64,000 nucleotides of DNA. It comes from Aphanothece saxicola GSE-SYN-MK-01-06B. GTDB lineage: Bacteria > Cyanobacteriota > Cyanobacteriia > PCC-6307 > Cyanobiaceae. The notes under the pieces are model-generated. The model was not told the DNA's origin, did no database searches, and saw only the letters and a program-made list of their open reading frames with translations. The position numbers were made by a program, and so were the translations under genes. The stretch lies in contig JAHHGT010000001.1 in the NCBI GenBank assembly GCA_019359745.1, positions 372,001-436,000 on the forward strand, read 5' to 3'. Positions 6,248 through 25,454 of the stretch are shown one piece after another; the stretch's first letter is position 1, and every line of letters starts with the position of its first letter.

Positions 6248-7567
6248 TTGACGCCCTGGTGGCAGGCTGGTCCCCGGTTCGAACGACCTTGCAGGGTGCA
6301 GACCATCCCTGACACCGATTCCCAGGCCGTAGCCACGGCGATCGATGCCATCGGCATCGTGGGAGGCGGCCAGCTGGCCTGGATGCTGGCCCAGGCCGCC
6401 CGGGACCTCGGGGTCGCCCTGCATGTGCAGACCCCCGGCGCCGACGATCCGGCCAGCCGCGAGGCGGCCAGTGTGGTGCTGGCCCCCATCGATGACGTGG
6501 TCGCCACCCGGGAGCTGGCCAGTCGCTGCCGCGCCATCAGTTTTGAAAACGAGTGGATTCCCCTTGACGCCCTGCAGGCGCTGGAGGGGCCTGCTCTGCA
6601 GTTCCTGCCGGGACTCCAGGCGCTGCGGCCCCTGGTGAGCAAGGCGGGCCAGCGGCGACTGCTGGCCGACCTGCACCTGCCGGCGCCCCGCTGGTTCCCC
6701 CTGGCCGACGTGCTCCAGCCCTACGCCCCCAGCCCAGCACACGGGGGGCAGGCCGCCTTTCCGGTGAGCCAGCCACGCCCCCTTCCGTCCCCAGCGGCTC
6801 CCCGCCTTCCCGAGGGCTTCGATTTTCCGATGATGGCCAAGGCCAGCCGCGGGGGCTACGACGGCCGCGGCACGGTGCCCCTGGCCGACCTGGCTGCGCT
6901 CGAGGAGCTGCTCGGCAGGGTCGACGCCGACGACTGGATTCTCGAGGAGCTGGTGCGCTTCGAGCAGGAGCTGGCGCTGGTGGCCTGCCGCGACCAGCAC
7001 GGCACGGTGGCCTGCTATCCCCTGGTGCAGACCCACCAGCACAGACGCGTCTGCGACTGGGTGCTGTTCCCGGCGCCAGTGGATCACCGGGTTGAGGTGT
7101 TCGCCCGCAACGTGGCCGCCTCCCTGCTCACCGCCCTCGACTACGTGGGCGTCCTGTCGATCGAGTTCTTCTACGGGCCCTCGGGTCTGCAGGTCAACGA
7201 GCTGGCCCCCCGCACCCACAACTCCGGCCACCTGACGATCGAGGCCTGCCGCACCAGCCAGTTCTCCCAGCAGGTGCGCATCGTCGCCGGGCTGCCGATG
7301 GGCGCCACCGACGCCGTGGTGCCCGGTGCCTTGATGATCAACCTGCTCGCGCCGGAGGGTGGCGATGCCGACCAGCTGGAGCGGCGCCGGGCCCTGGAGG
7401 CGCTCCCTGGCGCCCACCTGCACTGGTACGGCAAGCAAGGCGGCGGGGCCGGTCGCAAGCTGGGCCACCTCACCCTGCTGCTCGAGGGCCGCAACGACGC
7501 CGAGCGTGAGCTGGAGCGGCAACGCCGGCTGGCGCAGGTGCGGACCATCTGGCCGCTGCCTGGCTGA
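6248..7567 (+). CDS. purK: 5-(carboxyamino)imidazole ribonucleotide synthase
   Basis: PurK makes N5-CAIR from AIR, bicarbonate and ATP in purine synthesis. The ATP-grasp protein begins with the Rossmann-like IGIVGGGQLAWMLAQAA (about 34-50). ATP-grasp signatures include MMAKASRGGYDGRGTV, ILEELVRFEQELAL and the metal-binding VNELAPRTHNSGH. The TTG at 6248 has a GAGG about 8 bases upstream; a GTG at 6296 is an equally possible start and removes 16 poorly conserved residues. A proline-rich insert of about 30 residues precedes the ATP-grasp glycine loop. The gene ends 18 bases before a putative 6S RNA, the neighbour I recall for purK in other cyanobacteria. Confidence 0.93.
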   Translation: MTPWWQAGPRFERPCRVQTIPDTDSQAVATAIDAIGIVGGGQLAWMLAQAARDLGVALHVQTPGADDPASREAASVVLAPIDDVVATRELASRCRAISFENEWIPLDALQALEGPALQFLPGLQALRPLVSKAGQRRLLADLHLPAPRWFPLADVLQPYAPSPAHGGQAAFPVSQPRPLPSPAAPRLPEGFDFPMMAKASRGGYDGRGTVPLADLAALEELLGRVDADDWILEELVRFEQELALVACRDQHGTVACYPLVQTHQHRRVCDWVLFPAPVDHRVEVFARNVAASLLTALDYVGVLSIEFFYGPSGLQVNELAPRTHNSGHLTIEACRTSQFSQQVRIVAGLPMGATDAVVPGALMINLLAPEGGDADQLERRRALEALPGAHLHWYGKQGGGAGRKLGHLTLLLEGRNDAERELERQRRLAQVRTIWPLPG

Positions 7568-7572: not shown

Positions 7573-7579
7573 TTAGGAT
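7573..7579 (+). promoter_or_regulatory. -10 element of the putative 6S RNA gene
   Basis: TTAGGAT lies six bases before the predicted 5' end of the 6S-like RNA and just after the purK stop. It resembles a sigma-70-type TATAAT box. No clear -35 was identified because that region is inside the end of purK. Confidence 0.45.
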
Positions 7580-7584
7580 GTCCA

Positions 7585-7763
7585 TGGACTGCTGTGTTGG
7601 TGACTGCCTTTCACAGTTTTCTGATCTGACTCCCTTTCGACGCGGGGAGTCTTCAGCGACGGCAACGTATACCGGCCTCACGGCCGGAAACGAAGCCCCG
7701 CCCCTGACTCCCCACCTGGTTCATCCAGGTCGAACACTGGGGCAAGACGGCACGGCGGTCCAC
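7585..7763 (+). ncRNA. ssaA: 6S RNA (SsaA/Yfr7-like), regulator of RNA polymerase
   Basis: 6S RNA mimics an open promoter and binds RNA polymerase holoenzyme. The call rests on structure and position. A closing helix of about 15 consecutive pairs, including G-U, joins 7585-7599 (TGGACTGCTGTGTTG) to 7748-7762 (CGGCACGGCGGTCCA). Inside it are an open central region, two apical hairpins (GACTCCC with GGGAGTC, and CCGGCC-TCAC-GGCCGG) and a 3'-side hairpin, ACCTGG-TTCAT-CCAGGT. The length of about 180 nt and the place just after purK fit cyanobacterial 6S RNA as I remember it. The last 40 nt are the island's left 47-bp repeat. An unrelated structured RNA remains possible. Confidence 0.7.
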
Positions 7764-7770
7764 CCCTTTC
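7724..7770. repeat. Left 47-bp direct repeat (attL candidate)
   Basis: This copy is identical over 47 bases to 29818-29864. It starts TCCAGGTCGAACACTGG and ends CCACCCCTTTC. Its first 40 bases form the 3' part of the putative 6S RNA, including the whole 3' strand of the closing helix. Confidence 0.85.
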
Positions 7771-7945
7771 CACGACATGAGTCTCAGGCTGTCAAAGGTG
7801 AGACGTAACGACCAGCTGTAACGACCAGCCAATCGCCTCCGCTCAAGTTTCAGATCCGCTGCAACCCCCCAAGAAGTCACCGCCCTTCCTGGTTCGGCCC
7901 TCTTGCTGATGGTGAAACTGGGCCAAGAAGCCTGAAGGCGACAGA

Positions 7946-8638
7946 TCACCCCTCACCGACCCCGATACCCAGCCGCTCCAGGAGCCTCTTGACCTGGGTG
8001 GGGCTGAGCTGGTTCCCCGCCTTGGTGGTCTTCCCAGCCCCCTCCAGAGCAGCCGCCATGTCCCTGAGGGAGAGCCCAGCTGCGGCCATGGGACGAAGGA
8101 CTCCTCGAAGCTTCTCAGCCTCCCTGGTGGCCCTCTCCTTGGCCGCTGTGTTGTGACGGTGGGTGCCAGGCCTGAGACCACCCAGCTTGACCCCACGGGC
8201 CTTTGCAGCAGCCAGAGCGTCCCGTGTTCGCTCAGAGATGCGACGGGATTCGAACTCAGCCACAGATGCCATGACGGACAGGATCAGTCGACCAGCTGAA
8301 GTGGTGGCGTCCACGTCGGGCAGGTCGCAGAAGATGAATCCAGCGAGACCGTTGGTCTCTGCTTCCCTGCTCAGCCGAAGGACGAACTCAGCATCCCGAG
8401 CCAGCCTGTCGAGCTTGGCCACAGTGATGGCTGCCTTCCGCTTACGAGCTTCCACCAGGGCCTTGGCCAGCTCAGGTCGGTCGTCCTTCCTGCCGCTCTC
8501 CACCTCGACGAACTCAGCCACGACCACTGCGCCACGCTCAGCAGCTACCTGGGTGACCTTCTCGCGCTGTGCTTCCAACCCAAGACCGCTCTGGCCCTGT
8601 CGGTCGGTAGACACCCTGTAGTAGGCAACGAGATCCAA
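7946..8638 (-). CDS. Serine recombinase (resolvase/invertase family)
   Basis: This small serine recombinase has 230 residues. The catalytic domain opens with LVAYYRVSTDRQGQSGLGLE, in which the Ser of YRVST is the nucleophile. Arginines follow in VAKLDRLARDAEFVLRL and in FESRRISERTRDALAAAKARG. A C-terminal helix-turn-helix (about 180-225, LSLRDMAAALEGAG) should bind DNA. The size fits a resolvase or invertase rather than a large phage integrase. It sits 175 bp inside the left island boundary, transcribed toward it. It could resolve dimers of the element or invert a segment; the tyrosine recombinases at the far end are likelier integrases. Confidence 0.92.
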   Translation of the reverse strand: MDLVAYYRVSTDRQGQSGLGLEAQREKVTQVAAERGAVVVAEFVEVESGRKDDRPELAKALVEARKRKAAITVAKLDRLARDAEFVLRLSREAETNGLAGFIFCDLPDVDATTSAGRLILSVMASVAEFESRRISERTRDALAAAKARGVKLGGLRPGTHRHNTAAKERATREAEKLRGVLRPMAAAGLSLRDMAAALEGAGKTTKAGNQLSPTQVKRLLERLGIGVGEG

Positions 8639-9629
8639 GGGTCTGACCCCATCTGTACCAAGAGGCTACGTTCGTTGTGAGCGGTACGTCAAGCTGTGCT
8701 CAGAGGGCTGAGAGGACAGGGGCGCTGAGTAACCCGGTGACCAAGTGATGGAACTGAGATCGAGCAGGTGACCCCCTCCCTCTTTCGTCTTTGTGGTGAA
8801 CTCAGCGATCACCCCCCTATGGGGGAATGTGGACATCCAAGTCCGTAGGGTTGGCCTCACAGAGATTTTCTTCAAAATCCTTCGAATCGAGATGGGTCCC
8901 CTATCAAGTAGCTACCGGCATCAAGACGAACTGACACACAGACCCGCACTCGACACCATCTGTTGATTCTCGTCTGTTCTTCGCTTGGAACAACACCCCA
9001 CCCAGCCTCTGGGTTGAGGAGCAGCACGCCGTGGGTCCCGCAGTGAAGGCCATGAGCGTCAGCGGAAGGCCGAGAACGGCAGCGGGGGACGGTGAGCGAA
9101 CGCGACGACCCTAGAGGGAACAAACGCTCGAATCGACACTCTCACTCGCTCTCTCTAAGACCCAGCTGGCCACCAACTAATGGAAGTTCTGTTGTCGATA
9201 CCCCCGAAGGGGATCTTCACTCTCAAGCGCTCTCCGAAGGGCGGCTTGGACAATAACCAGCTTCAGCCGGCTGTGTCCCTCTCTTCAGTATCTGTCATTT
9301 CTTCTCTTCAACTCTTTCCTGCATTCAGTCGTCAGTTCGACTCGTTTCGTGGTGACCAGTCGAGACCCTGTCATCGCTGTGACCCACCCATCCCGAGGTC
9401 ACCCTGTGCCATTGATCTTGGCGCTGTGAGAGGGGCTGTAAATCGCCAAACTCACTCCGCTGTAACCGATCTCAGCTAATCAAGGCACGTAACCTCCAAA
9501 GAAAGACCCCTTAGAGCTAAGGGGCGTCGATTAGCCGATACCCGTTGGTGTGACTAGGGTGACCTGTGGCAGAAACCGATCTCAACGAGTAGCCTCACCG
9601 TGGTTGATTGAGTGATTGATTGGTGATGC
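8639..9629. other. About 1 kb between recombinase and helicase with no supported gene
   Basis: Short open frames exist at 8666-8875(-), 8872-9123(-) and 9180-9479(+), but their translations have no recognisable domain and skewed composition, so I do not call them. The stretch contains several short GC-rich hairpins: CCCCCC-TAT-GGGGG near 8812-8825, CCCC-GAA-GGGG near 9201-9211, and a strong inverted repeat at 9507-9524. It may hold promoters for the recombinase or an element origin. Confidence 0.4.
9507..9524. repeat. Near-perfect inverted repeat CCCCTTAG-AG-CTAAGGGG
   Basis: Two 8-bp arms complement each other exactly around a 2-base AG centre. It sits about 105 bp beyond the 3' end of the helicase gene. 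There is no T-run, so a classical terminator is not clear; a protein-binding operator is equally possible. Confidence 0.5.
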
Positions 9630-11879
9630 TCAGCTGGCCAGAGCGACCCGATCCACGTAGACCTGCCTCGATCGACCGAAGCCGCTGTAATTCAGCTCGA
9701 TGCCCAGCTCCTTGGCCCTTTTCGCGATTGAACCAGGGGTGTCACCGCTCACCCGTTTCCCCCATGTCTTGTTCCACGCATTACGGGAGATATCAGCCAG
9801 TTCAAGGAACTCAACAAGCCGTGTCCGCCCAACAGGGAGATTCACCAATACGCGAAGAAACGCTGCTTCTTTGAGCAGATCGTTTCCTTTCGGTTTCCGT
9901 GCTCGTATAAAGCCAGAGAAGTCCCACTCTTTGACCGTCACATTCGGAAGCTCATCAAGAAGCATCGCCTTGATTGAATCACCCCGTTCGTCACTTGGAA
10001 GAAGAACGAAGAGATCAGTTGGGTGACATCTCCCCCCTCCGTCTATGACCCTTCGAATTTGGCTTCGATAGAGAGCCTGAATCATGTCTACCGCCACCTT
10101 GCTGTTGATCATCTTCTTGACGAGACTTGAATGGCCTCGACGGCTGAGCTGTTCGAGCCCTTCAGCAAGACCCAGCTGGGAGCATAGTGTGTTCGCTGCC
10201 CATTCAGGTGGCCGGTAGAAGCAAGAGGCAATGACAACCGCGTCACAGTCAGCCCAACAATTCTCTCCGGTTGTAGCTCCCCAGTGTGTCGTTTCGAACT
10301 GATCGAAGTAGGGATCAGCCTGAGAGAGATCGGTTAAGCAGTTCTCCACCGAGATGTTTGCCACGAACAGAACCTTGCGATGGCGACCCAGATTGGGGTT
10401 CATCTTCAGGGACTCGTAAAGCTCGATCACACGTGTGTCTCGTTCGTTCGATTCTTTGCATCCAGACTTACCCAGGTTGGCTGGGGTTTGTTTGATGTGG
10501 AGCGTCACATCCTCCAGATTCCGAAGACACTTGTTCGACATAACCTCCACCCGATTGGGGAGAAAATCGTACGTCATGTCTTGAGAAGCTGTGCCATCAA
10601 GGATGACCATGCTTCCGACTTCATCACCAGACAGCAGCCAGGTGGCAGCGTTCGTCCGTTGGAATAATCCCGACTTGGTTGAATACGACCAATCGTTGAC
10701 CAGTCGATCGATGGCCTGTAGAACCGACTTGATGTTGGCCCTCACCTCCTGGGCGACGGTTGCGCTCTCTCGCCGGAGGGTGATTTGATCCCACGCATAC
10801 TCACCGAGAAGGAGGGTGGCGTAAAGCTGCTGCAGGTTGACCCTTGCTGGTGCTTCTTCCACGATCCGGTTGAACACGGAGCTTGTGACCGTCGGACTAG
10901 CCTTCGCGTCTGACTGAATCTGTTCGAGCACTGGACCAATCGCCTTGAAGACTGCCCACTCGCTTGGATGCTGCGAGCTGAGAGACGGGATCAACCCACC
11001 CTGAACGAAGTACCCGTCAACTCGGTTGTAATCTGAAAGGGTCAGCTGATACTCGCTGATAGGGTTTATCGATTCGTCAACAATGACCAGCATTCGTTGT
11101 CCGTATCTCCACCGAGCAAAGGACCGCATCGTCGAAGCGTTGCCATCCGAGAGTCGCTGGAGACTGTTGCTGTAAGCCTTATGGCAGATTACAAGGATCG
11201 GGTAGTTGTAGATGTCATTGAAGCTGACTTCTGACTGGGAGTGCTTGGCTACTGCACACTGGTCAGACCTGCCGGTGATGTCCTGATAGAAGAGGTTGAT
11301 CTCCCTCGCAGTCTTTTCGGCGGTCTGAATCCTCTCGACAATGAGGATGGCTCCCCAGCTGAAATTGATTCCAGTGAAGCTAGCGTCGAAGTAGCTTGCA
11401 GCAAGGATGGCACATGCAACATGGGCAGCTTGGGACTTCCCGATTCCACAACTACCGTTGTAAGTGTAGACAGACCCTTTGGTGTCAAGGAGTGACTTAT
11501 TGAATGTATCGCAAAGAAGCGTCCACTCTTTGATCAGATCATCCGAGATCGTGTTCCCCCGGCTAACCCAGACATCGGTCATGTCCTCGATGAACCAGTT
11601 CTCCTCGATCTTGGGAGTACTAGCTAGGTAAGGAGTGGGAGTCGGTGCTCCCATGCCAAAGTCATCTCCCTTAAGGTAGAAGGAAGTGGTCAGGTCGATC
11701 TCGTGCCAGTCCTCAGATAACCTGCGTCGAAGAACAGGGATTCTTGCTGCGAAGGCTGTCGTCCGATCATTAGTCGCTGATAGGGGTAAAGCGCCTCGCT
11801 GTGAGTCGAGGTCGACCTTGCGGCCGATGATGGTTAGAGGCTCTAAGTGTGAGCTGGTGGAGGGGATAGTAGTGGTCAT
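9630..11879 (-). CDS. SF2 helicase-like P-loop ATPase of the island
   Basis: This 749-residue protein carries a Walker A loop, NGSCGIGKSQAAH, at about residues 139-151. A motif Ia-like GAILIVERIQTAEKT, a Walker B/DExx LVIVDES and a motif III-like VILDGTAS follow. Later come THWGATTGENCWADCDAVVI and ALYRSQIRRVIDGG, which resemble SF2 motifs V and VI. The last 100 residues look like a winged-helix DNA-binding region. I do not recognise a named family. Its place beside a non-coding tandem repeat array suggests an element replication or mobilisation helicase, an inference only. The start is the ATG at 11879; a 54-aa gene lies just upstream on the same strand. Confidence 0.7.
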   Translation of the reverse strand: MTTTIPSTSSHLEPLTIIGRKVDLDSQRGALPLSATNDRTTAFAARIPVLRRRLSEDWHEIDLTTSFYLKGDDFGMGAPTPTPYLASTPKIEENWFIEDMTDVWVSRGNTISDDLIKEWTLLCDTFNKSLLDTKGSVYTYNGSCGIGKSQAAHVACAILAASYFDASFTGINFSWGAILIVERIQTAEKTAREINLFYQDITGRSDQCAVAKHSQSEVSFNDIYNYPILVICHKAYSNSLQRLSDGNASTMRSFARWRYGQRMLVIVDESINPISEYQLTLSDYNRVDGYFVQGGLIPSLSSQHPSEWAVFKAIGPVLEQIQSDAKASPTVTSSVFNRIVEEAPARVNLQQLYATLLLGEYAWDQITLRRESATVAQEVRANIKSVLQAIDRLVNDWSYSTKSGLFQRTNAATWLLSGDEVGSMVILDGTASQDMTYDFLPNRVEVMSNKCLRNLEDVTLHIKQTPANLGKSGCKESNERDTRVIELYESLKMNPNLGRHRKVLFVANISVENCLTDLSQADPYFDQFETTHWGATTGENCWADCDAVVIASCFYRPPEWAANTLCSQLGLAEGLEQLSRRGHSSLVKKMINSKVAVDMIQALYRSQIRRVIDGGGRCHPTDLFVLLPSDERGDSIKAMLLDELPNVTVKEWDFSGFIRARKPKGNDLLKEAAFLRVLVNLPVGRTRLVEFLELADISRNAWNKTWGKRVSGDTPGSIAKRAKELGIELNYSGFGRSRQVYVDRVALAS

Positions 11880-11963
11880 GTTGATAGTTGTACTGAGAGA
11901 GAAAGAAGGAGGTATAGATAGAGACTGAGTGCTCGCTTGTTGGTTTGGTGGCTCACCACCGGT

Positions 11964-12128
11964 TCACTGTTTCTCTCTGAAGTGAGAGAGGAGCTGAGTA
12001 ATATCGTCGAGTCGATAAGCGATCTTCCGTAAGGTCGCATTGATCAGCTGAAGCGTCCCAATCAGATCCGAGGCTGCTCGCGGGCTCACTGGGGGTGCGG
12101 GTTGTGTCCGATGAGGTGCGTTGTCCAT
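11964..12128 (-). CDS. 54-aa hypothetical protein upstream of the helicase-like gene
   Basis: ATG at 12128 opens a 54-residue frame ending at a TGA at 11964-11966. The N-terminus is proline-rich. The second half, ASDLIGTLQLINATLRKI followed by AYRLDDITQLLSHF, is a strongly amphipathic heptad-like helix, which suggests a short coiled coil. It is on the helicase strand, 84 bp ahead of it, and probably co-transcribed. Composition and heptad pattern look like a real protein rather than a chance frame. The function is unknown; a small oligomeric accessory or regulatory protein would fit. Confidence 0.55.
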   Translation of the reverse strand: MDNAPHRTQPAPPVSPRAASDLIGTLQLINATLRKIAYRLDDITQLLSHFREKQ

Positions 12129-12303
12129 AAATCCAAGCAGTGCAGTTGCTTTGTGAGTTTTGTGAGTGCGTATGATTGGCTAATCCCTATCCCCTAGGCA
12201 TCGAGCCCAGATGTGATCCTCTCGGGAGGGTTGTTGATGATGTTGACGAGTGATCGAAGCTGGGGCTTAGTGCGTTCGAGGGCTCACGTTCGAGCAAATG
12301 TCT

Positions 12304-13298
12304 CCTCAGCAGATGGGGGCCCTCCCAATTCTTCAGTGGTGGCCTGTGTTTGTTCGAGCCACCTTGGGTTGCTATAAGGGGCCACTGAGGGCCATTCCCC
12401 AGGAGAAGTGACTGACCCCATGGCTATTGGCTTGCCCAGTGAGTAGGCGAAAGGACTCGACCTCTGGCGAACCACCTCTCCTCAGCAGATGTCCCATCTC
12501 CCGATTCTTCAGTGGTGGACAGGGCCGGTTCGTACGAGATCATTCGGAGAGCTCACCGGAGATGCGATTCACCGCCTTCCTCAGCAGTAGTGACGTACCC
12601 AGTGGTGGCCTGTGTTTGTTCGAGTCACCTTGGGTTGCTATCGGGGGGTACTGAGGGCCATTTCCTAGCAGTAGTGACAGACCCCATGGCTATTGGGGTG
12701 CCCAGTGATCATGCGAACGGACTTGACCTCTGGCGAGCCAACCCTCCTCAGCAGATGTGACTGGTCCCGATTCTTCAGTGGTGGACTGGGCCGGTGCTTG
12801 CGAGGTCGTTCGAGGTCGTTCGCGAGCTCACTTGAGTGCTCACTGGAGATGCGAGCCGCTGCCGTTCCTCAGCAGATGTCAGTGATCTAGTGGTGGCCTG
12901 TGTTCCCACTCCACCCATCTCGGCCCGTTCCCCAGGAGAAGTGACAGACCCCATGGCTATTGGGTTACCCAGTGATCAAGCGAACAGACTCGACCTCTGG
13001 CGAAACACCCCTCCTCAGCAATCGTAACTGCTCCCAATTTCCCAGTGCTGGACAGGGGCTGTTCAAGGTCGTTCGCGAGCTCACTTGAGTGCTCACTTGG
13101 GCTGCGAGCAGCCGCCTTCCTCAGCAGATGCAAGCTCTCCCGATTCTTCAGTGGCTCACTGAGGTCGCCTCAGCTGGATTACCAGAGGTGGCCTTCCTCA
13201 GCAATCATGACTGACCCAGTGAGGGACCGGGACCGTTCCACATGGTCCACCCACCACATCGAGCCAGCGAACTGATTCGGGCGTTTCCTCAGCAGATA
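12304..13298. repeat. Non-coding tandem repeat array, about 267-bp period
   Basis: About 1 kb of diverged direct repeats. CCCCATGGCTATTGG recurs at 12416, 12682 and 12949 (266 and 267 bp apart). CCTCAGCA recurs nine times, at 12304, 12480, 12579, 12746, 12867, 13013, 13119, 13196 and 13287, roughly twice per unit and usually as CCTCAGCAGATG. TTCTTCAGTGGTGG and GCCTGTGTTTGTTCGAG recur similarly. Frames across it are short, differ between copies and stop often, so it is not a repetitive protein gene. There are no uniform spacers, so it is not CRISPR. An origin with iterons, a partition site or recombination sites are possible roles. Confidence 0.8.
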
Positions 13299-13358
13299 TG
13301 ACACATCTCCCATCGCCTTGGTATCACTAGGTCGGCTTGGTCGGCCACTGGGCTCAAT

Positions 13359-13619
13359 TTGGGCCTTGCCAACGGGGGGCTCACAGTCCTCACATCTACC
13401 GCTGTTGGGGACTCCGGCATAAACTGTCCCGAGCCATACCACTCTCCATTGCTCACCGACCAGCCAGGAGCCACCTCCGGTGATGACCAGGAGATCGAGG
13501 AGGAGCTGGGTAACGTTCTGTTGGAGATACTCCCTAGCGACGGGTCCACCATTGGCAACCAAGCAGCCCGGAAACGCCTGTCTGGGTGGGTTGACTGGGA
13601 GATCGACGGGGTGGCCTAA
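13359..13619 (+). CDS. 86-aa hypothetical protein, possible remnant of a methyltransferase C-terminus
   Basis: The last 50 residues look protein-like. The segment LLEILPSDGSTIGNQAARKR resembles a sequence I associate with C-terminal parts of large restriction-modification DNA methyltransferases. The first 35 residues have no recognisable character. Nothing catalytic is present. It may be a remnant of a lost restriction-modification gene or a chance frame. Confidence 0.35.
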   Translation: MGLANGGLTVLTSTAVGDSGINCPEPYHSPLLTDQPGATSGDDQEIEEELGNVLLEILPSDGSTIGNQAARKRLSGWVDWEIDGVA

Positions 13620-13678
13620 TCAGCGCTCAAGGAGCGTCTCCTAGGCGTGTGAGCAAGGGTTATGTCCACCACGTTCGG

Positions 13679-15154
13679 TCAGCTGTTCTCTAAGGTCCTC
13701 TCCAGCTCTTTACGCTTGGCTTCACTTTGCCGATACTGCTTGACTTCAGCAGCCAAGGTAATCTTTAATTCAGAGGCGGTTCCTTCCTCCTGGTGAATCC
13801 TGACCAGTTCTTCACGTATCTCTTCTATCGAGACTCTGAAGAACTCTTTCCTAAGATTCTCAAGATTGATCCTTCGGTTGTCGAACCTCCTGTGCAAGGA
13901 GTTCTCAAGTGATGGAGCGTCCTTTGTGAAGATCAGTGCATGCACATCAAAGGGAAAAGGAACTGAGGCATCCCCAAGCTCTCGAACTCTGTCTAGTGGC
14001 TCACGCCTTCTTGTCATACCAATCTTATAGACATGCTCTCCGAAGCTCCCAACATTACTTATGATGTAGACGTGGCCTGACCGAGTTAGCTGCGCTTGGC
14101 TGATAGCTCTTTGCTTCGCTTCTTCGGCTGCCGCGACAGTCGCTTCGAGAATGGCAATCTTTTCCTCGAGAGCTGAGCGGTCATCCAAGGTTGAAGCCGC
14201 AGCCTCTGCCTTGGCTTTGTTCAGCAACTCTCTGTACTTCTCCTCTTCCCGTTCTGCATCGCTTCTTGCTTTCTCCAATTCTCTCAAGGCCCTTTCTTCA
14301 TCCTTCATTTGGGCGCGTATCAGCGCTTGCTCCTCACGTTCTCTCTGCTTTGCCTCCTCGTAAGTAAACACCAGCCTCAGCTCTCGCAAGCGATTCTCTA
14401 GATATTTCTTGGAAAGATGACAATGCCACAACTCGGCAAGCTTTCCAATCTGATCAAAGCTGTTATCGATTCTCTTCTCCATCTGGCCGATGTTTTTGTA
14501 TGTAACTCGCGCAATAAACGCATCACACTCACCGTTGAAGGCTCGGAGCATTAGCCTCAGAACCTTCTTCAGCATCGCTTTCCCCTTTGATACTGATCCA
14601 TCGAATGAGATTTCCTTAGAACAAAATGCAGCTGCTCCTCTATCCCCACTGCTGCCATCTAGAAGCAACATTCTCTTTTGCTCTGCTCTTAGCTCGGCAA
14701 GTGCAGTTTCATAGGCCGGAAGATCGCTGAACTCATAGTCAGGTTCGATGTAGCCAACCTGCATTAGTAGGCTGTCATCCTGAAGGAGGCTTAGCGACCT
14801 CTTGATTGCATTGAGTTCGAGTGCCTTGCCTTTGCGCTCATTTTCTATCTCTGCGATTCGATTCAGCGCTTGAAGCTTCTCTTGCTCAATATCGACTAGA
14901 TCCTTCTTGGCCTGGTGTTTTATCTCTGTTGCCTCAACCTTCGCTTTGGCAATGATGGACTCTGCCATCTTTCTTGAGGCGGCTTCCATTTGCTGCGTTC
15001 CATCTCGCATATTGGCTGCTTCCCGTTGTACATCTACAATTGGAGCAAACTTCTTTCTCATCCGCTTTAGCTTGTGCTGGGCTACCATTGCCCAGACCAA
15101 GGAAGCGAAAGCTGCAATACTCAGAACTAAAACGACCATGACCAGATTGACCAA
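13679..15154 (-). CDS. DUF4041 and T5orf172 (GIY-YIG-like) protein with N-terminal membrane helix
   Basis: The 491 residues begin with one membrane helix (about 3-24) and continue as a charged coiled coil (about 25-120). A DUF4041 domain starts near GYIEPDYEFSDLPAYETALA (about 132-151). A second coiled coil (about 265-350) leads to a C-terminal T5orf172/MUG113 domain, recognisable by GHVYIISNVGSFGEHVYKIG and MTRRREPLDRVRELGDASVP, the GIY-YIG nuclease-like fold. The family occurs widely in phages and islands with no settled function. A membrane anchor plus a nuclease-like tip could suit a defence or DNA-processing role, which is inference. No operon partner is adjacent. Confidence 0.85.
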   Translation of the reverse strand: MVNLVMVVLVLSIAAFASLVWAMVAQHKLKRMRKKFAPIVDVQREAANMRDGTQQMEAASRKMAESIIAKAKVEATEIKHQAKKDLVDIEQEKLQALNRIAEIENERKGKALELNAIKRSLSLLQDDSLLMQVGYIEPDYEFSDLPAYETALAELRAEQKRMLLLDGSSGDRGAAAFCSKEISFDGSVSKGKAMLKKVLRLMLRAFNGECDAFIARVTYKNIGQMEKRIDNSFDQIGKLAELWHCHLSKKYLENRLRELRLVFTYEEAKQREREEQALIRAQMKDEERALRELEKARSDAEREEEKYRELLNKAKAEAAASTLDDRSALEEKIAILEATVAAAEEAKQRAISQAQLTRSGHVYIISNVGSFGEHVYKIGMTRRREPLDRVRELGDASVPFPFDVHALIFTKDAPSLENSLHRRFDNRRINLENLRKEFFRVSIEEIREELVRIHQEEGTASELKITLAAEVKQYRQSEAKRKELERTLENS

Positions 15155-15413
15155 AGGGTTCTTTTATAGCTCGCTTTGGTTCCAGCTGTGTTGACGGAAT
15201 GAAACCGAAACAGACCTTGAGGGACTTGGTGGATACGAAGCTCAACCACTGGCTGGTTCATGTTTCAGTGTGTAGCCGTGAGCACACGGCGAATGTCTTC
15301 ATGTGGTCTCTTCCACTAGGAATGTGAAAGCGGAATGATCATTCCTGATCTTCTGCACTTGTAACCGCTTTGCGGCGTAGTGGCCTGACCATGCTCAAGC
15401 CAGACTTGGGAAG

Positions 15414-16118
15414 TTACCCTTTGCTGGCTTCGTCTTTAGGTCTGTGCTGGGAACAGAATCGACTTTCAATGAATGTCACCGAGCCATCAGGAGACTCTCC
15501 CCAGACGACCATCCGGTTGGCTTCATCAAGATCTACTCTTGTCTTTCCTCTAACGAAGCCGCCGCTCCCCGACTTCGAGAATCCTTCGAGTTCATTCTCT
15601 GCGTAACGGAACACGATTACCACTTGCCACCCTCAATCAAGTGGCATCTTTCCAACAAGCTGGGTTCCCATGGCACCCCTGCCGAACCAGGAATCCTCGA
15701 CCACCAACACATTGAAAAGGAAGATGGTGACCTCGACCATTTCCCCATCTGGAGCACATTGAATCCAGTGAGTTGACTCTGGTGCGTCACGAGGCGGAGA
15801 CGATGGGCTCGTCCAAGGAAAGCAAACCCGTGCAGCCAGAGTCAATGGTTCTGTGGTGGCATCTCGTCGGTCCCAAACACCAAGGAACCGGGAAGTCGGT
15901 ATGGCGTTCGGTGGAAACAACTTCTCTAGCTTGTCTCGATGAAAGCTAACGTGCCATCGACCGCTTTGATGCAGACTGAGTTTCATCGCATGTCCAAGCG
16001 GACGGCTAGTAAGGTACACGTCTTTCTTGCCTCTTCCTACGCTTGTCCAGCAATTCCAGATATCTGTTGTGGCCCCATCATGAGATCTGACAGCAAACCG
16101 AATGCTGTGTTGAGGCAT
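15414..16118 (-). pseudogene. Unknown protein split by one in-frame TGA
   Basis: From ATG 16118 (MPQHSIRFAVRSHDG) the frame runs 161 codons to a TGA at 15633-15635. It then continues in the same frame for 73 more codons with no loss of protein character (GWQVVIVFRYAENELEGF) to a stop at 15414. The first part has the pattern of a widespread small unknown family: a tryptophan-rich strand, DVYLTSRPLGHAMKLSLHQS, then GRWHVSF. The simplest reading is a recent nonsense mutation. Stop-codon readthrough cannot be excluded. The frame also extends upstream to 16223 without an ATG. Confidence 0.6.
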
Positions 16119-16423
16119 GGCGCGAAGCAGTAAGGAGTTGACTTGCCAACCGTCTTGAGGTTTCCACTGTACTGATGATTTGGCGGAGAGCAACTGGTTG
16201 CTTCCAGCGTCTTCCAGCACCAAAGCTTGTTCACTTCCTGCTTTGGTTTTGTGTGATCAAGGGTTCTCCCCACATTCATTGGTGGAGGGCCATTCCATCG
16301 CTTAGGGGATAAACGACTTCTAGACCGGCATGGCTGTTGCAACCTTCGACCACGCCATGATCGTGAGCGGTGACTACTTGAGAACCCCCTACCAGCAACC
16401 ATTCCGATGACTCCTGAGTCCCC
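16119..16423. other. 305 bp with no supported feature
   Basis: This stretch separates the divergent broken gene and the 60-aa gene. I see no convincing frame, RNA or repeat. Promoters for both neighbours probably lie here but no clear box was identified. Confidence 0.3.
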
Positions 16424-16606
16424 ATGACGGACGCTGACGACCGCACTACCCGCCTAGCTGAACTTCAGAAGCAGCTGGACGCCTTGTCCGAAGAGGGCAG
16501 AGCCACTGAGCCGAATACACCTGTACGGGCAGCAGTGCTTGAGCGTTGGGCTCCTATCTATGCGGCTGTGATGGCGTTGAAGGAGGAGCTGGATGGTGAC
16601 GAATAG
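16424..16606 (+). CDS. 60-aa helical protein, paralogue of the one at 19309
   Basis: ATG 16424 opens a 60-residue protein, MTDADDRTTRLAELQKQLDA onward, with two charged amphipathic helices around the linker ATEPNTPVRAAVLERW. A second copy at 19309-19485 shares most positions, including LAEL, QLDAL, EEGRATEP and the end VMALKEEL. Two separate copies with amino-acid conservation argue that both are real genes. No family is recognised. The size and helical charge pattern suggest a small regulatory or binding protein, which is inference. This copy lies outside the nested segment; the other lies inside. Confidence 0.65.
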   Translation: MTDADDRTTRLAELQKQLDALSEEGRATEPNTPVRAAVLERWAPIYAAVMALKEELDGDE

Positions 16607-16782
16607 GCACAACTTGTCGATCCATCCAATGGCCAGCCAGCGTCACCACCAGGGACCAAGGACAATCAAAGCGGACAACGCTTTTAGGGACCGCTAGGCC
16701 AACGATCAGGAGCACCTGTAAGGGGGAGGTGGCACCTTGTCCGTCAGCCGGAAATCCGAGTGAAGGAAGGGATGACCCTGGT

Positions 16783-17394
16783 TCAGTTGATAGCGCTGGT
16801 GACCGGCATTTTGCTGCTCTTGATGCGCTTCCTCAGCTTGCGGCTGTAGCCGAAGGCAGCGGCAGCGCCGAGCACAGGCAGGGGGGCGGGGACGCTTGGG
16901 ACGCTGGGCGTAGGGGTTGTAATTGCGCTAAATTGGACAATGCCACTATCGATACATCTATCAACAACGCAAAAGGCCTCCTGAAACACGCCAAAGCTTA
17001 GAGAAGAGCCGCCAATAGATGAAAAGTTGAGGAGGTAGAGCGGTCCGGAACTGCTAACCCCAAACCAGGTCGCTTCCGTAATGACACCGTCGATGACTGT
17101 AAACCCCGATTCGTCTCCGACTCCGGCGGGTGTATATGGCCCTGCTCCTGTGATCCCATTTGCATTGTTAGTTCCACCATTTGCCAACCCCGTCGACACA
17201 CTTACAGAACATCCAATCGTGCTCCCGCTGTTGCATCGGTTTGTTTCATTGTCAACTAAGCCGGTGATGAGTCCCGATAGCTCGGTCCCAAAGGAGAAGG
17301 TGAAGTCGAGAGCTGATGCTGCCTGTGGAGCCAGCATGGAGACTGTCGCAAAGCCAAGGGCGGCGATGGTCGCTCCAGAGACAACTGATTTCAC
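16783..17394 (-). CDS. Exported protein with a PEP-CTERM-type sorting tail
   Basis: The 203-residue protein starts with a signal peptide (about 1-28, ending near PQAASALDF). A Gly/Ser/Asn-rich beta-type middle contains four cysteines. The C-terminus is VPAPLPVLGAAAAFGYSRKL followed by RKRIK. That tail, PAPLP, a short hydrophobic helix and a basic cluster, is the cyanobacterial variant of the PEP-CTERM sorting signal processed by exosortase-like systems. The product is thus likely exported and surface-anchored or released. About 22 residues follow the basic cluster, which is slightly longer than usual. No exosortase is in the window. Substrate or partner is unknown. Confidence 0.75.
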   Translation of the reverse strand: MKSVVSGATIAALGFATVSMLAPQAASALDFTFSFGTELSGLITGLVDNETNRCNSGSTIGCSVSVSTGLANGGTNNANGITGAGPYTPAGVGDESGFTVIDGVITEATWFGVSSSGPLYLLNFSSIGGSSLSFGVFQEAFCVVDRCIDSGIVQFSAITTPTPSVPSVPAPLPVLGAAAAFGYSRKLRKRIKSSKMPVTSAIN

Positions 17395-18122
17395 GCTAAA
17401 ATCATGTATTTCTCACCAAGAATATAGCTTGCGGGCCACTGCTTCGGTATCGATAGACACGTTGGTTGTCCCAGTGTGTGATCCCTGCCATGGCGATGGA
17501 AGACGCGGGGCCCCCTCTGCCAGGACAGTTGACGCCTCTCAATCCCAACCTTTTCCATCCACCTGGGTCTTGATGGAGCAGGCCAATGGGTCGACAAAAC
17601 GGGCCGTCTAGCCGAAGGCTTCTGAGAAGCAATTGGCTGGTGTGAGGAGTCGGATGAGTCCACCACGCTGGCAGGGCGTGGCCCTAGGTGTGGCCCAGGC
17701 CTCCTCGCTGACAGGCTCAAAACCTTGCAGTGACTGACATCTCCGGTAGGGCTTACCTAGTTGAAGTACGTCTTGCCGGACAGTTACCAGATCCCGCAAG
17801 GGAACTGGGAAGTTGCCCTCCCGGCGTGGCCCAAGCTCGTTGCTCAAGGGGGGTCTGAGGTGGCGTCCAGGAAGCATGGCAGCATCGTCAGGAAGGGCCG
17901 AGCCGGGTTCCTGCAGCAGCGCGGCGTCCCCAGGTCAGCCAGGGTGTGATCGGCAAGTGCCAGTCGAAAGAGCCAGTCGGGATGACCATCAGAGAGGCAC
18001 TGGCTCGTGTCCCCAGCTTCCTCACTAGAACGGATCAGCCCTGCCGCTGTGACCCGCGGCGAGTGGACCCCCTCAAAAGACGAGCAAATCTACGCCATCC
18101 CTCAGCGGTTCGACCTCTCTGA
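17395..18122. other. About 730 bp around the left inner repeat, no firm gene
   Basis: Contains the 99-bp repeat copy at 17676-17774. A frame at 17982-18122(+) starts MTIREALARVPSFL but loses protein character. Another frame across 18007-18180 (SDSAVIDALSAGITAALGDK) looks partly protein-like but runs into the HsdR remnant in a different frame. Both may be debris from insertion and deletion. Confidence 0.35.
17676..17774. repeat. Left inner repeat, att-like
   Basis: The block starts GCGTGGCCCTAGGTGTGGCC and ends with the exact core CTTACCTAGTTGAAGTACGT plus CTT (17752-17774). The core recurs at 27556-27578, and the preceding 75 bases match there at roughly 70-80 percent by eye. Confidence 0.7.
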
Positions 18123-19226
18123 CTCAGCGGTGATCGACGCCCTGTCGGCTGGGATTACTGCAGCGCTGGGAGACAAGACGATGCTCCTCAGCTCAAGGAG
18201 GCACTGGCCACCTACACGGCTTCAAAGGGCAAGGGTCGACCCACCATCGACACAGACGTTGCCTATCGAATCCTCCAAGAGAAGCTCCAGGTCGCCAACG
18301 ACATGCTTCACCCGATCGACTGGAGTGGCTTTCGGGAACCCACCAAGGCCATGGCACTCTTGGCGGTTTGCCTCGACCACATCATTGAGCTGCCGGATGG
18401 ACGCAAGCGGTTTTGTGATGTGGTTCTGAATATCACCAAGGCCTTTGCCCTCTGTGGCACCTTGGATAAGGCAATTGTCTTCACGGATGAGATTGCCTTC
18501 CTTCAGGCTATCCGTGCCCCCCTAGTGACGGGAGCTGATGATAGCGGCGATGGTCGAGCACCAAAGAATAATGACTTTGCTCTGAAGCAGCTCCTCTCTG
18601 ACGCTCTGGTTGGTGGAGGGATCACCGATGTCTTCAAGGTGGCAGGGCTGGAGAAACAAGACATCAGCATTCTCTCGGATATGTTTCTGGCTGAGGTCGC
18701 CAAGATCCCTCTGAAAAGCCTTGCCGTTGAACTGCTGCAACGTCTCCTCAAGGAGGAGGTACAGACCCGGTTCAAGACGAATGTGGTTCAGTCGAAGAAG
18801 TTCAGTGAGATGCTCAAGGCATCCTTGACCAAGTATTCCAATCGCTCGATCGAGGCATCTGCCGTCATCGCTGAACTCATTTCGATGGCAAAGCAGTTCC
18901 GTGAGGATGCAGTGAAAGCAGATTCACTAGGCCTTTCCCCTGCTGAACTTGCTTTCTATGATGCCTTGGCCAACAACCAGTCAGCTCATGACCTGATGGG
19001 GGACGAGGTGTTGACGGCGATGGCTCGGGAGCTTGCGGAGAAGCTACGTCGAAATCTCTCCATTGACTGCCAGCACAAGGAGAACGTCCGTGCTCGGCTC
19101 AGGAATCTGATCAAGGCCCTGCTTAAGTGGTACAAGTATCCACCCGATCAAGAGGCAGCTGCCGTGGATCTGGTGTTGGTGCAGGCTGAGACGCTTTCAG
19201 AGGATTGGTCAGTAGAAGCTGCATGA
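18123..19226 (+). pseudogene. C-terminal remnant of type I restriction subunit HsdR
   Basis: The frame encodes only the C-terminal region of a type I restriction endonuclease R subunit. Readable landmarks are LKEALATYTASKGKGRPTID, LSPAELAFYDALANNQSAHD, LMGDEVLTAMARELAEKLRR and KENVRARLRNLIKALLKWYK with the closing YPPD segment (DUF3387-like HsdR tail). An intact HsdR is about 1000 residues with nuclease and helicase domains, which are absent here; the frame closes at a TGA at 18120. The first ATG is at 18303. No hsdM or hsdS lies nearby. The remnant sits just inside the left inner repeat and may have been cut by the insertion that made it. Confidence 0.75.
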
Positions 19227-19308
19227 TTCACCTCGACTCACCACGGTTTTATTACTTTCAGCTGGTAGAGGAAGATTCCTGCTCCTGTCGCAGTCGTACA
19301 TGTAGCTC

Positions 19309-19485
19309 ATGACCACCAACGACCGAGCTGCCCGACTCGCTGAACTTAAGCAGCAGCTGGACGCCTTGACAGAGGAAGGCCGAGCCACTGAACCGAGCAC
19401 CCCTGAACGGGAAGAAGTGCTTGAACGTTGGGCTCCGATCTTTGCGGCTGTGATGGCGTTGAAGGAGGAGCTGGAGGAGGGTTGA
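19309..19485 (+). CDS. 58-aa helical protein, paralogue of the one at 16424
   Basis: ATG 19309 to TGA 19483-19485 gives 58 residues starting MTTNDRAARLAELKQQLDAL. It matches the 60-aa protein at 16424 along its whole length, with changes mostly conservative and codon positions differing, which fits two selected gene copies. It follows the HsdR remnant by 82 bp on the same strand. The family is not recognised. Both copies have a short proline turn between two charged helices. Confidence 0.65.
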   Translation: MTTNDRAARLAELKQQLDALTEEGRATEPSTPEREEVLERWAPIFAAVMALKEELEEG

Positions 19486-19795
19486 GCTGGCATTCTGGCT
19501 TGTCATTCACGTTATCAGCCAAGTGAGAACTACCTTCTACATCTTGGGACTATTGGCTCAAGAGAACTATGCCTCAGCCGCTTATCTCTTGCTAATGCAT
19601 GACTACATATTGACAGGGTCTAGTAATTGGCCTTTTTGCCATCGATATTGCGTTTACCAGGTTTGCGTGCTAAAAGGATTCCTATTCTCGTGGCTTGCTA
19701 GCTTCGGAGGGTCGACTATGGGAAGACAGCTGTATCTCCCCATCACCTTACAGGCTTATTAACGATCTCCTTTTCTTGATCATTGGTTGGCATGA
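19486..19795. other. 310 bp with no supported gene
   Basis: Separates the 58-aa gene from the SieB-family gene. One 79-codon frame (19523-19762, +) lacks recognisable features. The sequence is AT-richer than the backbone and probably holds the promoter for the SieB-family gene. Confidence 0.3.
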
Positions 19796-20302
19796 ATGGA
19801 TCCATCTAAGCTCCTTCCATTTCTCAAGCTTAGTCCCCAAGTCTTGCTTGGCATCTTCATAGCTTCAGCGCTATTGGCATTCTCGCCAAAGATCCTTCTT
19901 GTGCAGCTTGGCTTGTCTTCGTTGGTTATTCTTTATCGAGGTTGGATTGGAGGCCTGTTCGTCTTGAGTGCGGCCATGCTCCTTTCAAAGTGTATGGTCA
20001 CGGCATACAGGAAAGGACTTGCCCTCTATTCAGAGTGGCGACTAGCGGCTGGGAGAAGGGCTTCATTCGCATATCTGAGCCCACCAGAACGAGCTCTTTT
20101 AAAGCGATATCTTATCGAAGATACAACCACACTCATCTTCCCGATTTCTGATGGTGTTGTTGGTGGTCTTGTCGCGAAGCAGTATATCTTCAGACCTTCT
20201 AACGTCGGGTCATATGGTATGCACTACGCCTTCAATCTTCATCCTTGGGTCTGGGTTTGTTTGTCGAAAAGTCCTGATCTGCTGAATGATCCAGTATCCT
20301 AA
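19796..20302 (+). CDS. Superinfection exclusion B (SieB)-family membrane protein
   Basis: The 168-residue protein fits the SieB family by layout. The start MDPSKLLPFLKLSPQVLLGI leads into two membrane helices (about 16-32 and 42-65). A cytoplasmic part follows with YLSPPERALLKRYLIED, then ISDGVVGGLVAKQYIFRPSN and the end FNLHPWVWVCLSKSPDLL. SieB of lambdoid phages aborts infection by other phages; chromosomal relatives are mostly untested. It could protect the host or element from phages, which is inference. The gene stands alone on the plus strand between the 58-aa gene and an IS remnant. Confidence 0.7.
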   Translation: MDPSKLLPFLKLSPQVLLGIFIASALLAFSPKILLVQLGLSSLVILYRGWIGGLFVLSAAMLLSKCMVTAYRKGLALYSEWRLAAGRRASFAYLSPPERALLKRYLIEDTTTLIFPISDGVVGGLVAKQYIFRPSNVGSYGMHYAFNLHPWVWVCLSKSPDLLNDPVS

Positions 20303-21000
20303 TGAACTGTACTCACTACTTCTTGGCTTTTGGCGCTAGCTGCAATCGTTTTGCTTTCGCCTATCCGACTATCACCACTGGATTCATGAAGCGTGGCCAA
20401 AGCCGCGGCTCAATACCCCTTTTCAACGACCTGAGACCTACTTCGGTGACTGCACCTCTTGCTAGGGCATGCACAGTTAACCTTGGACGGGATGATAGGA
20501 GCTATTTCCACTGACTAACTCTTGGGGAGTTCGACTTCCAAGTGCGCGGTGACATCTTACAATGCCATACCAACCCAGGATGCGGTCTAGGTCTGAACTA
20601 GGCCTCTCATCCTTCGCTGGAGGTTGGCACGTACACCTCTTCATACTCGAGAGCCCTCCAAAGCTCCTCTGCCAGGATGATGTCAACGTAGCGACTATCC
20701 TAGGACCAGTAGAATCCTATTCCTCTTATCTCTTGATTCTCAGTAGAACTTTGTCTGTGAACTGACACACTCTATCAAATTATTTCATTATTGTCTAGCT
20801 AGTTAGCGTCTGTATTCAGAGGGATCTCGGGGGTTGACTTTGGAATATGGGTGCGGCGCTTAAATCATTGAGTGGGTGTCCACTTTTCAGGGTTGGTGCC
20901 CCACCTCGGTGGGAGGTTGATATCTCTCCTGAATCCCAAGACACCATACTCTTAGGGGATTCATCGTTGGCTTCACGCTCAACACCGTCTGAGTCAGAGG
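20303..21000. other. About 700 bp with no intact gene
   Basis: Apart from the decayed IS3 transposase at about 20477-20720, I see no supported gene. The right part (20720-21000) has short plus frames without domain character. Confidence 0.4.
20477..20720 (-). pseudogene. Decayed IS3-family transposase fragment
   Basis: Two pieces of the C-terminal part of an IS3-type orfB are readable on the minus strand in different frames. The first (about 20693-20609) gives RYVDIILAEELWRALEYEEV followed by YVPTSSEG and then stops. The second (ending at 20477) gives ILGWYGIVRCHRALGSRTPQ followed by ELVSG, the familiar end of such transposases. A TAG precedes the first piece. Only the last part of the catalytic domain remains, and no terminal inverted repeats were found. 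Confidence 0.7.
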
Positions 21001-21414
21001 CTACTTGGTTTCAGGAGGAGCAAAGAAGACGAACAAGCTAAACAGCACTAAGCTCAGCAGAAATAATCTGATCTGAAGACGGCACTGGGTTCCTAGAGAG
21101 GGATGCTCTCCCTTGAGTCCACCTTTCTGTTCATAGATACTTAATTGTGGCTCTACCTGCAACAGCGTGGGCAGCTTCTCAGCAATGGATGGGATTGTCC
21201 CAACAACCCAAACTGCACCTACCCATATTGAACCTACCAATGACACTAATAGGAGCGCGGTCAGCAAGCCGTACCAGCCGGTGGGCGACTGTCGTAGCAG
21301 ACTCCCAATTACGCCGATCGCCGCACTCTCGACAATAATCAGGCCACTACTCCAATCTCTAACTAATTTGAGCGCTTCAAGATGGTTGGATTCGAGCTGG
21401 TTGGACGAGTTCAT
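21001..21414 (-). CDS. Unknown small membrane protein
   Basis: The 137 residues start MNSSNQLESNHLEALKLVRD and contain three likely membrane helices: about 24-40, about 49-72, and about 114-131 near the C-terminus. Between the second and third is a soluble stretch of roughly 40 residues with no recognisable motif. It shares strand with the larger membrane gene at 21531-23057, 116 bp downstream of it, so a common transcript is plausible. No function is recognised. Confidence 0.55.
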   Translation of the reverse strand: MNSSNQLESNHLEALKLVRDWSSGLIIVESAAIGVIGSLLRQSPTGWYGLLTALLLVSLVGSIWVGAVWVVGTIPSIAEKLPTLLQVEPQLSIYEQKGGLKGEHPSLGTQCRLQIRLFLLSLVLFSLFVFFAPPETK

Positions 21415-21530
21415 CAGTTAAGAATGATGGAGTATGCGATCGTTTAGTGGGTGTCTCACTGCATAAAGAGATGCCAAACAGCAGTTTCCTAATTGGCGAG
21501 AATGACAACCGACTGAAACTCTCTGGACCC

Positions 21531-23057: not shown

Positions 23058-23349
23058 AACGGAACGTCGGCATCAACTCTGCATATCATTGTTCAATTGA
23101 TCTTTGCTTTCGTGGTTGCAGGTCATGAGTTTGGCTTGCAATCCCCAGGAATATCCAAGTCAGCATGTGGGTGATCTGACGTCCTTTCAAGAAGTGAAGT
23201 AGAGCTGCCTGGATTGGCAAGACTCGGCTTGCTTGCTTCGTTGGATTCATCGACCAGCTCACACCAAGTGTTTGATTCTTGGTTCATAACCTTCTATTCA
23301 CAGAAGACCCGACGGCTTGGAACTGCCTGAAATTCTTGTGGTCGTCAGT

Positions 23350-24033: not shown

Positions 24034-24284
24034 CTGGTGGAGCTGAAGGTCTCAGCATTTTCGGTGCCAGTGTCCGCCACCGGGGACCCTGTACCCAGTC
24101 GCCACACCACCATCACCATGCCCCGCTACCTCTGGCACTTCGATCCCGATGGCTGGCCCGTCGAACGCATCGACACCCTCACCGTCGAGCATGTTCCGGT
24201 CTTCACTGGTGGCCCTCAGGAGACGCTCTACCCCCAGGAGGGTGGGCGCCCCATGGCCTGCTCTTTTCCCAAGGTCTCAGGGGT

Positions 24285-24410
24285 GGTTTTGGGACTTGGA
24301 TTGCTCTCGCCGAACAAGGTGCAGACACCCGACTCATTCATGACCACCTTCGGCACCGCATCAATCAGCACACCGTGCGCTACACCGCAACCAACACTCG
24401 ATCGGTCTGA
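24285..24410 (+). pseudogene. Fragment of a FimB/XerC-like tyrosine recombinase
   Basis: In one plus frame the sequence reads TWIALAEQGADTRLIHDHLR followed by HRINQHTVRYTATN. This matches the C-terminal catalytic end of FimB/FimE-type tyrosine recombinases, with their usual GxDTRLIQDYLGHRN and the nucleophile Tyr in HTVRYTA. The earlier part of the domain is missing or out of frame, so it is a remnant. It overlaps a longer frame (24037-24438) that I do not consider a gene. Confidence 0.55.
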
Positions 24411-24508
24411 GTGGTTTTGGGCAAATCGCTCAAGATAATAAGCTGGCAGGGCTATTGGGGTGCCAAAAAATGTTCCTACTCACGTCTTCTGTATCTGGTT
24501 TCCAGGCC

Positions 24509-25333: not shown

Positions 25334-25454
25334 GAGGTACAACGCTGCCACTTAGCGGCGGCCAGGTGAATACCCTTTAGGGGTCTTTTGGCTCTTGATA
25401 AGATCCTATGGCTCTCTACCTCAGAAGTGGGTTGTTAAGCATGCATAAAACGAG

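Follow-up and report, generated by a model that had tools for sequence, protein, structure and literature searches.

The same stretch of a small RNA gene occurs twice in a 64,000-nt piece of DNA from Aphanothece saxicola (hereafter the window), once within what looks like a complete gene and once on its own at the far end of a low-GC island. This raises the question of whether the gene is that of 6S RNA and, if so, whether a mobile element uses it as an attachment site. A first-pass annotation, made from the letters alone, had described a perfect 47-bp repeat, a 6S-like fold closed by a helix of about 15 pairs, a TTAGGAT box and a right-hand repeat copy lacking the 5' half of the RNA, and had supposed on this ground that the RNA is 6S RNA and that an integrase had acted at its 3' end. 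It proposed a search with the Rfam 6S models, a comparison with genomes that lack the island and a search for the repeat beside other integrases.

Self-comparison of the window returned exactly 47 identical base pairs at positions 7724-7770 and 29818-29864, with the alignment stopping at both edges; the expectation of an exact 47-mer by chance in 26 kb is about 2e-20 at equal base frequencies. The repeats bound an island of 22.1 kb, the interior of which has a GC content of 0.47-0.58 in 2-kb windows, compared with 0.63-0.72 in the flanks. The Rfam covariance model of 6S RNA, RF00013, matches positions 7583-7765 of the plus strand over its entire length (model positions 1-187 of 187, E 9.8e-16), and the score of 86.6 bits against a gathering threshold of 46.4 bears out the proposed identity of the RNA. 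A search of the same genome with this model at E <= 0.1 found no further 6S gene. The fold has a z-score of -5.0 against shuffled sequences and contains the terminal helix of about 15 pairs, and the TTAGGAT box is present at 7573-7579, where TAnnnT occurs in 12 of the 12 relatives inspected and TAGGAT in seven of them. The right repeat copy does lack the 5' part of 6S. Since the RNA model ends at 7765, the repeat spans the final 42 nt of 6S and 5 nt past it; the earlier statement that the repeat covers the 3' end of the RNA therefore stands, whereas its extent, given as the last 40 nt, does not.

The genomic context agrees with this identification. The excerpted text of a Nodularia transcriptome study (PMC3610870) puts the start site of 6S within purK, so that a purK-6S order is to be expected in cyanobacteria; the 6S gene of the window follows purK, and a purK match adjoins 6S in the same-genus loci compared. 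Together with this neighbourhood, Yfr RNAs in members of the family suggest a cyanobacterium of the Prochlorococcus/Synechococcus/Cyanobium group. A tRNA gene was also considered as the target and rejected, the only tRNA found in the window lying at 59832-59919; no tmRNA was found there.

In order to compare the locus with island-free relatives, a query was assembled from the left flank of the window, one copy of the core and the right flank. Of 60 relatives, 58 have an RF00013 match (57 above the cut-off), and the rejoined flanks aligned across the junction as a single match in 8/8 purK-6S-nitroreductase loci tried. In seven of these loci (L055, L059, L063, L061, L049, L090 and L091) the match extends for about 3 kb, at least 1.4 kb of it on either side of the junction, and identity is 79-91%; in the eighth (L050), which lies at a contig end, it is 1.9 kb long with 70% identity. 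The set does not include L035, a ninth locus of this kind with its nitroreductase some 0.7 kb off. The uninterrupted arrangement that the first-pass annotation had asked after is thus found in relatives. A nitroreductase match is present in seven of the 34 same-genus 6S loci (L031-L064) and also in L090 and L091, and the remaining same-genus loci, which are most of L031-L064, carry other DNA 3' of 6S. Of the 43 relatives whose native 6S downstream regions were compared, 42 match the 2.5 kb that follow the right repeat copy, in many cases only in the part past the nitroreductase, and none matches the first 2.5 kb of island DNA 3' of 6S. We conclude that the right copy is the original end of the host gene and that the left copy came with the island. 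With an intact 6S gene at the left, a displaced 3' fragment at the right, empty sites in relatives and a tyrosine integrase inside, the locus has the features by which RNA-gene islands are recognised, and the earlier view that insertion replaces and restores the end of the RNA is upheld.

The features of the locus are collected in Table 1. The cargo also contains a tandem array at 12301-13171, consisting of three copies of a unit of about 266 nt (85% and 62% identity to the first), and a 157-nt duplication of 86% identity at 16437-16593 and 19319-19475, which flanks the HsdR piece. A 749-aa protein (9630-11879, minus strand), in which a Walker A-like GSCGIGKS can be read by eye, had no match in Pfam, PHROGs, PADLOC or NCBIfam and may serve the element in replication or as a helicase.

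Table 1. Features of the 6S locus and its island, in window coordinates
Feature	Position	Strand	Basis
purK, host gene 5' of 6S	6248-7567	+	NCBIfam PRK06019.1-5, 394 bits (cut-off 326); TIGR01161, 340.6 bits (cut-off 318.4)
-10-like promoter box of 6S, TTAGGAT (putative function)	7573-7579	+	read from the letters and relatives
Intact 6S RNA gene, 3' end island-supplied	7583-7765	+	RF00013 full length; fold z -5.0
attL core, left 47-bp repeat copy, within intact 6S gene	7724-7770	+	repeat analysis
Octamer CAGGTCGA, putative strand-exchange region (attL)	7726-7733	+	CAGGTCGR in all att copies
Putative arm-type site P'1, CGTAACGACCAG	7804-7815	+	offset +34, in range of related islands; degenerate
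Putative arm-type site P'2, TGTAACGACCAG	7817-7828	+	offset +47
Small serine recombinase (resolvase/invertase type)	7946-8638	-	PF00239, 115 bits
Island cargo	8639-27647		protein family and defence matches; low GC
PD-Lambda-1-like defence protein, DUF4041/T5orf172	13679-15154	-	502 bits
HsdR-like type I restriction remnant, C-terminal, 307 aa	18303-19226	+	
SieB-like superinfection-exclusion protein	19796-20302	+	70 bits
Second tyrosine integrase, N-terminally short, 217 aa	27648-28301	-	PF00589, 36.4 bits
Tyrosine integrase of the 6S-targeting group (P0001)	28394-29659	-	likely ATG start; frame open to 29722
Putative arm-type site P1, TGTCAGATCCAA	29733-29744	+	offset -86, as in related islands; degenerate
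Putative arm-type site P2, TGTCATGACCAC	29746-29757	+	offset -73
attR core, displaced original 3' end of host 6S gene	29818-29864	+	repeat analysis; downstream 2.5 kb matches native 6S flanks
Nitroreductase, host gene after 6S in empty-site relatives	29887-30600	-	PF00881, 66.6 bits

The gene of the main integrase, P0001, a divergent tyrosine integrase, is complete in the window and lies about 160 bp from the right repeat copy. The catalytic residues R272, K306, H369, R372, H394 and Y406 are all present; among the 14 members of the integrase group described below, R-K-H-R is found in at least 90% and the tyrosine in 11. P0001 scores 23 bits with Pfam PF00589, below the cut-off of 27.1, and its PHROGs match is an integrase. 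A structure model (pLDDT 84.5, pTM 0.63) gave 28 structure matches at E <= 0.001, including Tn1549 Int, XerA and lambda Int, with modest TM values of 0.24-0.46 relative to the query; full-length lambda Int was among them, at 0.44. At the sequence level, the integrase profile matches a XerC-like chain and Tn1549 Int chains. Residues 1-66 of the model form three strands and a helix, in a block with pLDDT of 82-92 up to residue 60, and this predicted sheet and helix fit an arm-binding domain without proving one; DUF6538 is found in four of the 14 group members. A search for P0001 in viral contigs gave no confirmed match, P0002 had none among phage records, and comparison of P0001 with genome contigs gave one distant partial match, in a Vicinamibacterales record. 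Candidate attP sites were also sought, without a match, by scanning viral contigs for the 6S 3'-end pattern and by comparing the 6S region with phage records.

Two routes led to related islands in the family. When 300 family genomes were searched with the last 65 nt of 6S, 149 had a match of any kind and six had two, and a second copy of the 6S end was solid only in the genome of the window (G000) and in G081. The second matches in G014, G017 and G027 were short and weak, and that in G175 was a second 6S gene truncated by the start of a contig; these were rejected as double-copy cases. In G081, which belongs to another genus, a displaced 47-nt copy 96% identical to the query ends an island of 40.4 kb, and the integrase near this copy is 53% identical to that of the window over 399 aa. 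Adjoining the core, ACGACATGAGTCTC.GGCTGTCA is common to both islands at their left ends, and G126, a relative of G081 in the same genus, has an empty site.

Since the 65-nt search is blind to diverged 6S genes, the integrase route found more islands. A profile built from the two integrases matched 19 proteins, from 17 of the 400 family genomes searched, and in a midpoint-rooted tree of all 19, 14 group together with a support of 100/100. We scored an integrase as 6S-linked when a 6S gene lies within about 20 kb or when a displaced 6S fragment lies beside it. By this measure 10 of the 14 group members are at 6S (G000, G081, G143, G148, G165, G200, one of two in G211, G219, G316 and G360, from eight genera) compared with 0/5 of the remaining, outgroup integrases. 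In G081 the 6S gene is 40 kb away and the displaced fragment is beside the integrase; in G165 the contig ends before attR; and G200 has a fragment only, on a short contig of an assembly in which no full 6S gene was found. G412, with a probable fragment beside the integrase and no 6S found in the assembly, is a probable eleventh case. The 6S 3' end therefore does adjoin related integrases in other genomes, as the search for the repeat beside other integrases had been meant to find out. No 6S end adjoins the integrases of G157 and G223 or the second integrase of G211 (G211b), and with these three members the group is not strictly 6S-bound. The second G211 integrase (contig C2:39044-40339, L123) has similar-looking arm words and no 6S core, and its site is possibly a secondary attachment site.

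On the tree, the 6S label requires four changes, and 11 of 500 shuffled labellings reach as few. For the five outgroup integrases, 6S is 51-67 kb off in four cases and about 470 kb off in G112; a CAGGTCG upstream of the outgroup match in G271 was rejected as an att core, being inside the open frame of that gene, in which the match starts at residue 153. In a sample of 388 genomes of the class, the 14-member profile matched 11 genomes at E <= 1e-25, all in the family of the window, several of these matches being weaker relatives outside the group. Both ends were seen in eight islands, and in every one of these the 6S gene and the integrase gene point towards one another, the integrase lying by the displaced copy. 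Several group integrases look dead from their sequences: G157 has W at the position of the active tyrosine, the G360 integrase is cut short (295 aa), that of G219 is without the N-terminal part (322 aa), and the G081 integrase (L086:4515-5873) is probably a dead copy, its homology being lost before the active tyrosine with no frame that restores it.

These data also bear on whether another recombinase of the island, either the serine resolvase or the short second tyrosine integrase, could have mobilised it with the main integrase as a passenger. Both are present, the resolvase only about 175 bp inside the attL core. However, the resolvase had no tblastn match in the seven other 6S islands tested, and the second integrase, which is N-terminally short, is nearer to the five outgroup integrases (36-39% identity) than to the main one (28%), none of these five being at 6S, whereas it is the main integrase type that recurs at 6S elsewhere. 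We regard mobilisation by either of these enzymes as improbable.

In order to define the core, we compared the att copies of the eight islands in which both were seen. CAGGTCGR is common to every copy, and in all eight pairs exact identity begins at, or 2-7 nt before, this octamer and runs towards the end of the RNA. A CCAG/CTGG dyad was considered as the core site and rejected, as it is absent in G143 and G360. In G316 (intact 6S at L118:3130-3313, displaced copy at 13824-13870), exact identity between attL and attR is limited to CAGGTCGA. To the left of the octamer, host-like TTCTTC stands in the intact gene and TTTTAT in the displaced copy; on the right it is the displaced copy that resembles two same-genus relatives (GATCACCGGGGCTCG against GACCACTGGGGCTCG), and the intact gene differs. 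The rebuilt 3' end has eight differences from the displaced, host-like copy and is absent from both same-genus relatives examined. The simplest reading of these sequences is that exchange took place inside the 8 bp of CAGGTCGA and that a foreign 3' end now sits in the 6S gene, in which case a mobile element may have replaced part of the 6S RNA. In this one island, the difference could instead stem from mutation after integration.

The same alignments address the idea that the RNA gene is a bystander, the true target being either the DNA 3' of 6S or a short sequence located in 6S by chance. Sequence common to attL of G165 and attR of G200 does continue beyond the end of the RNA, but the DNA 3' of 6S varies among relatives, the octamer and the intact gene being constant, and in 8/8 pairs the shared stretch begins inside 6S and reaches its end, with some differences. 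We consider a bystander role very improbable. The flanks of the other islands were compared as well. Past attR, native 6S downstream DNA was matched by blastn and tblastx, respectively, in 29 and 33 of the 43 relatives for G081, 28 and 41 for G211, 41 and 41 for G316, and 41 and 41 for G219. For G148 the count was 0/43 within 2.5 kb and 41/43 by tblastx within 4.3 kb. G200 matched 0/43 of these relatives and 2/11 Prochlorococcus-like loci, G143 0/43 and, weakly, 1/11, and for G360 the native flank was matched in 0/43 and 0/11. The DNA after the intact 6S gene matched 0/43 in all eight islands tested; that of G143 matches 2/11 Prochlorococcus-like loci, which may reflect shared cargo.

Outside the core, seven of the eight islands have direct repeats of a word of about 8-10 nt, with copies on either side and neighbours mostly 12-14 nt apart, a layout that we take to be that of lambda-type attP sites. 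The word differs from island to island (e.g. GGTCCTACCA, TTGACTGACA, GGTACCCACA and TGCAGGACCA) and the positions agree, best on the P side: the P arm copies lie at -70 to -95 in all seven and the P' arm copies at +12 to +83, with one G360 copy at +186, these offsets varying by a few bases with the chosen end of each attL. The observed word count was reached by 0/1000 shuffles in G143, G148, G211, G219 and G360, by three in G316 and by 11 in G081. In the island of the window, exact 8-mer repeats are not significant, their number being equalled or exceeded in 625 of 1000 shuffles. The four putative sites in Table 1 are degenerate; a post hoc consensus of them has two exact matches compared with 0.72 expected, a number equalled in 19 of 100 shuffles, so that the window sites are weak when taken alone. 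Across the group, the location of 10 of the 14 integrases at 6S together with lambda-type arm repeats around most cores raises the use of the integrase from the guess of the first-pass annotation to a strong inference. A history without site-specific integration, in which the repeat stems from local duplication, or from homologous recombination that carried a 6S fragment with it, and the island was built up piece by piece, accords with the composite look of the cargo (the HsdR remnant and the internal duplications) but deserves next to no credence given the clean empty sites, the near-identical left repeat border in eight islands of several genera, the single integrase group adjoining it and the arm repeats at agreeing positions.

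The repeat, the intact 6S gene, the displaced fragment, the empty sites and the recurrence with a related integrase in other genera are direct observations, and we hold with high confidence that the island is an integrative element whose own tyrosine integrase (28394-29659) placed it in the 3' part of the 6S gene. The attP of this element would carry a copy of 6S from CAGGTCGA to just past the end of the RNA, and recombination within CAGGTCGA, presumably catalysed by P0001 bound at the candidate arm sites, would swap this copy into the host gene. The 6S gene would thereby be rebuilt whole at attL, with the 3' end of the host displaced to attR beside the integrase; the rebuilt RNA would be made and would work, and the element may still be mobile. 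What the comparison reveals is a recurrent lineage of integrative elements with the 6S RNA gene as attB.

Among RNA genes, those of tRNA and tmRNA are the classic attachment sites; in tRNA islands the integrase more often lies beside the intact gene. The idea of sublocations for integration sites is reportedly due to Williams in 2002. That an island restores the RNA gene it has split is the usual case at tRNA and tmRNA genes, on which a main island database is built, according to the excerpted text of PMC4383910. The present elements resemble these Islander islands in having a tyrosine integrase, a target restored by an island-borne 3' part and a displaced fragment at the far end; they differ in that the target is 6S RNA and that the integrase lies beside the displaced fragment (attR) in 8/8 islands.

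Within the picocyanobacteria, one known kind of island with a tyrosine recombinase and variable cargo is the tycheposon of Prochlorococcus (Hackl et al. 2023, by way of PMC10872708 and PMC10187409, both as excerpted). Tycheposons are described as bound to tRNA genes, seven in number in the excerpted account (PMC10872708), unlike the 6S-bound elements, a distinction drawn from the published descriptions. The cluster158946 integrase is likewise a divergent picocyanobacterial tyrosine integrase of variable islands, often with a small serine recombinase nearby, but is typically found upstream of tRNA-Phe or tRNA-Cys in the excerpted description, by which alone the two were compared (PMC10187409). 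In Acinetobacter baumannii, ssrS was named in 2025 among the top three prophage hotspots (PMC11998280, as excerpted), so that integration in the neighbourhood of 6S has some precedent. The likeness is that the 6S gene adjoins a favoured place of integration; the differences are that these are prophages of another phylum and that the excerpted text gives adjacency only, with no att core, gene restoration or integrase group. The doubt voiced earlier that use of 6S as an attachment site is widely described was thus fair, one paper, in its excerpted text, naming an ssrS hotspot. Our search of the open-licence PMC literature, outside which lies Hackl et al. 2023 as the likeliest place, returned no 6S att cores, no 6S-bound integrase group and no cyanobacterial case.

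6S RNA is a regulator of RNA polymerase and governs a growth-phase switch. The integrase group described here, the window copy of which falls below the Pfam cut-off, uses another kind of conserved RNA gene than the classic ones, and 6S is a target to add to the mapping of islands in picocyanobacteria. The Acinetobacter hotspot is thereby set in a wider frame, with elements at the 6S gene in two unrelated bacterial groups. More tentatively, and as a possibility that we would not favour on present evidence, the lineage could have made the gene of a global transcription regulator its special target, rewriting 6S as well as restoring it, with the G316 element replacing part of the host 6S horizontally; such elements could adjust the growth-phase switch or be adjusted by it. 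The exchange of the 3' strand of 6S by mobile elements amounts to a natural experiment on 6S RNA, and the group offers integrases with a conserved natural landing site in picocyanobacteria.
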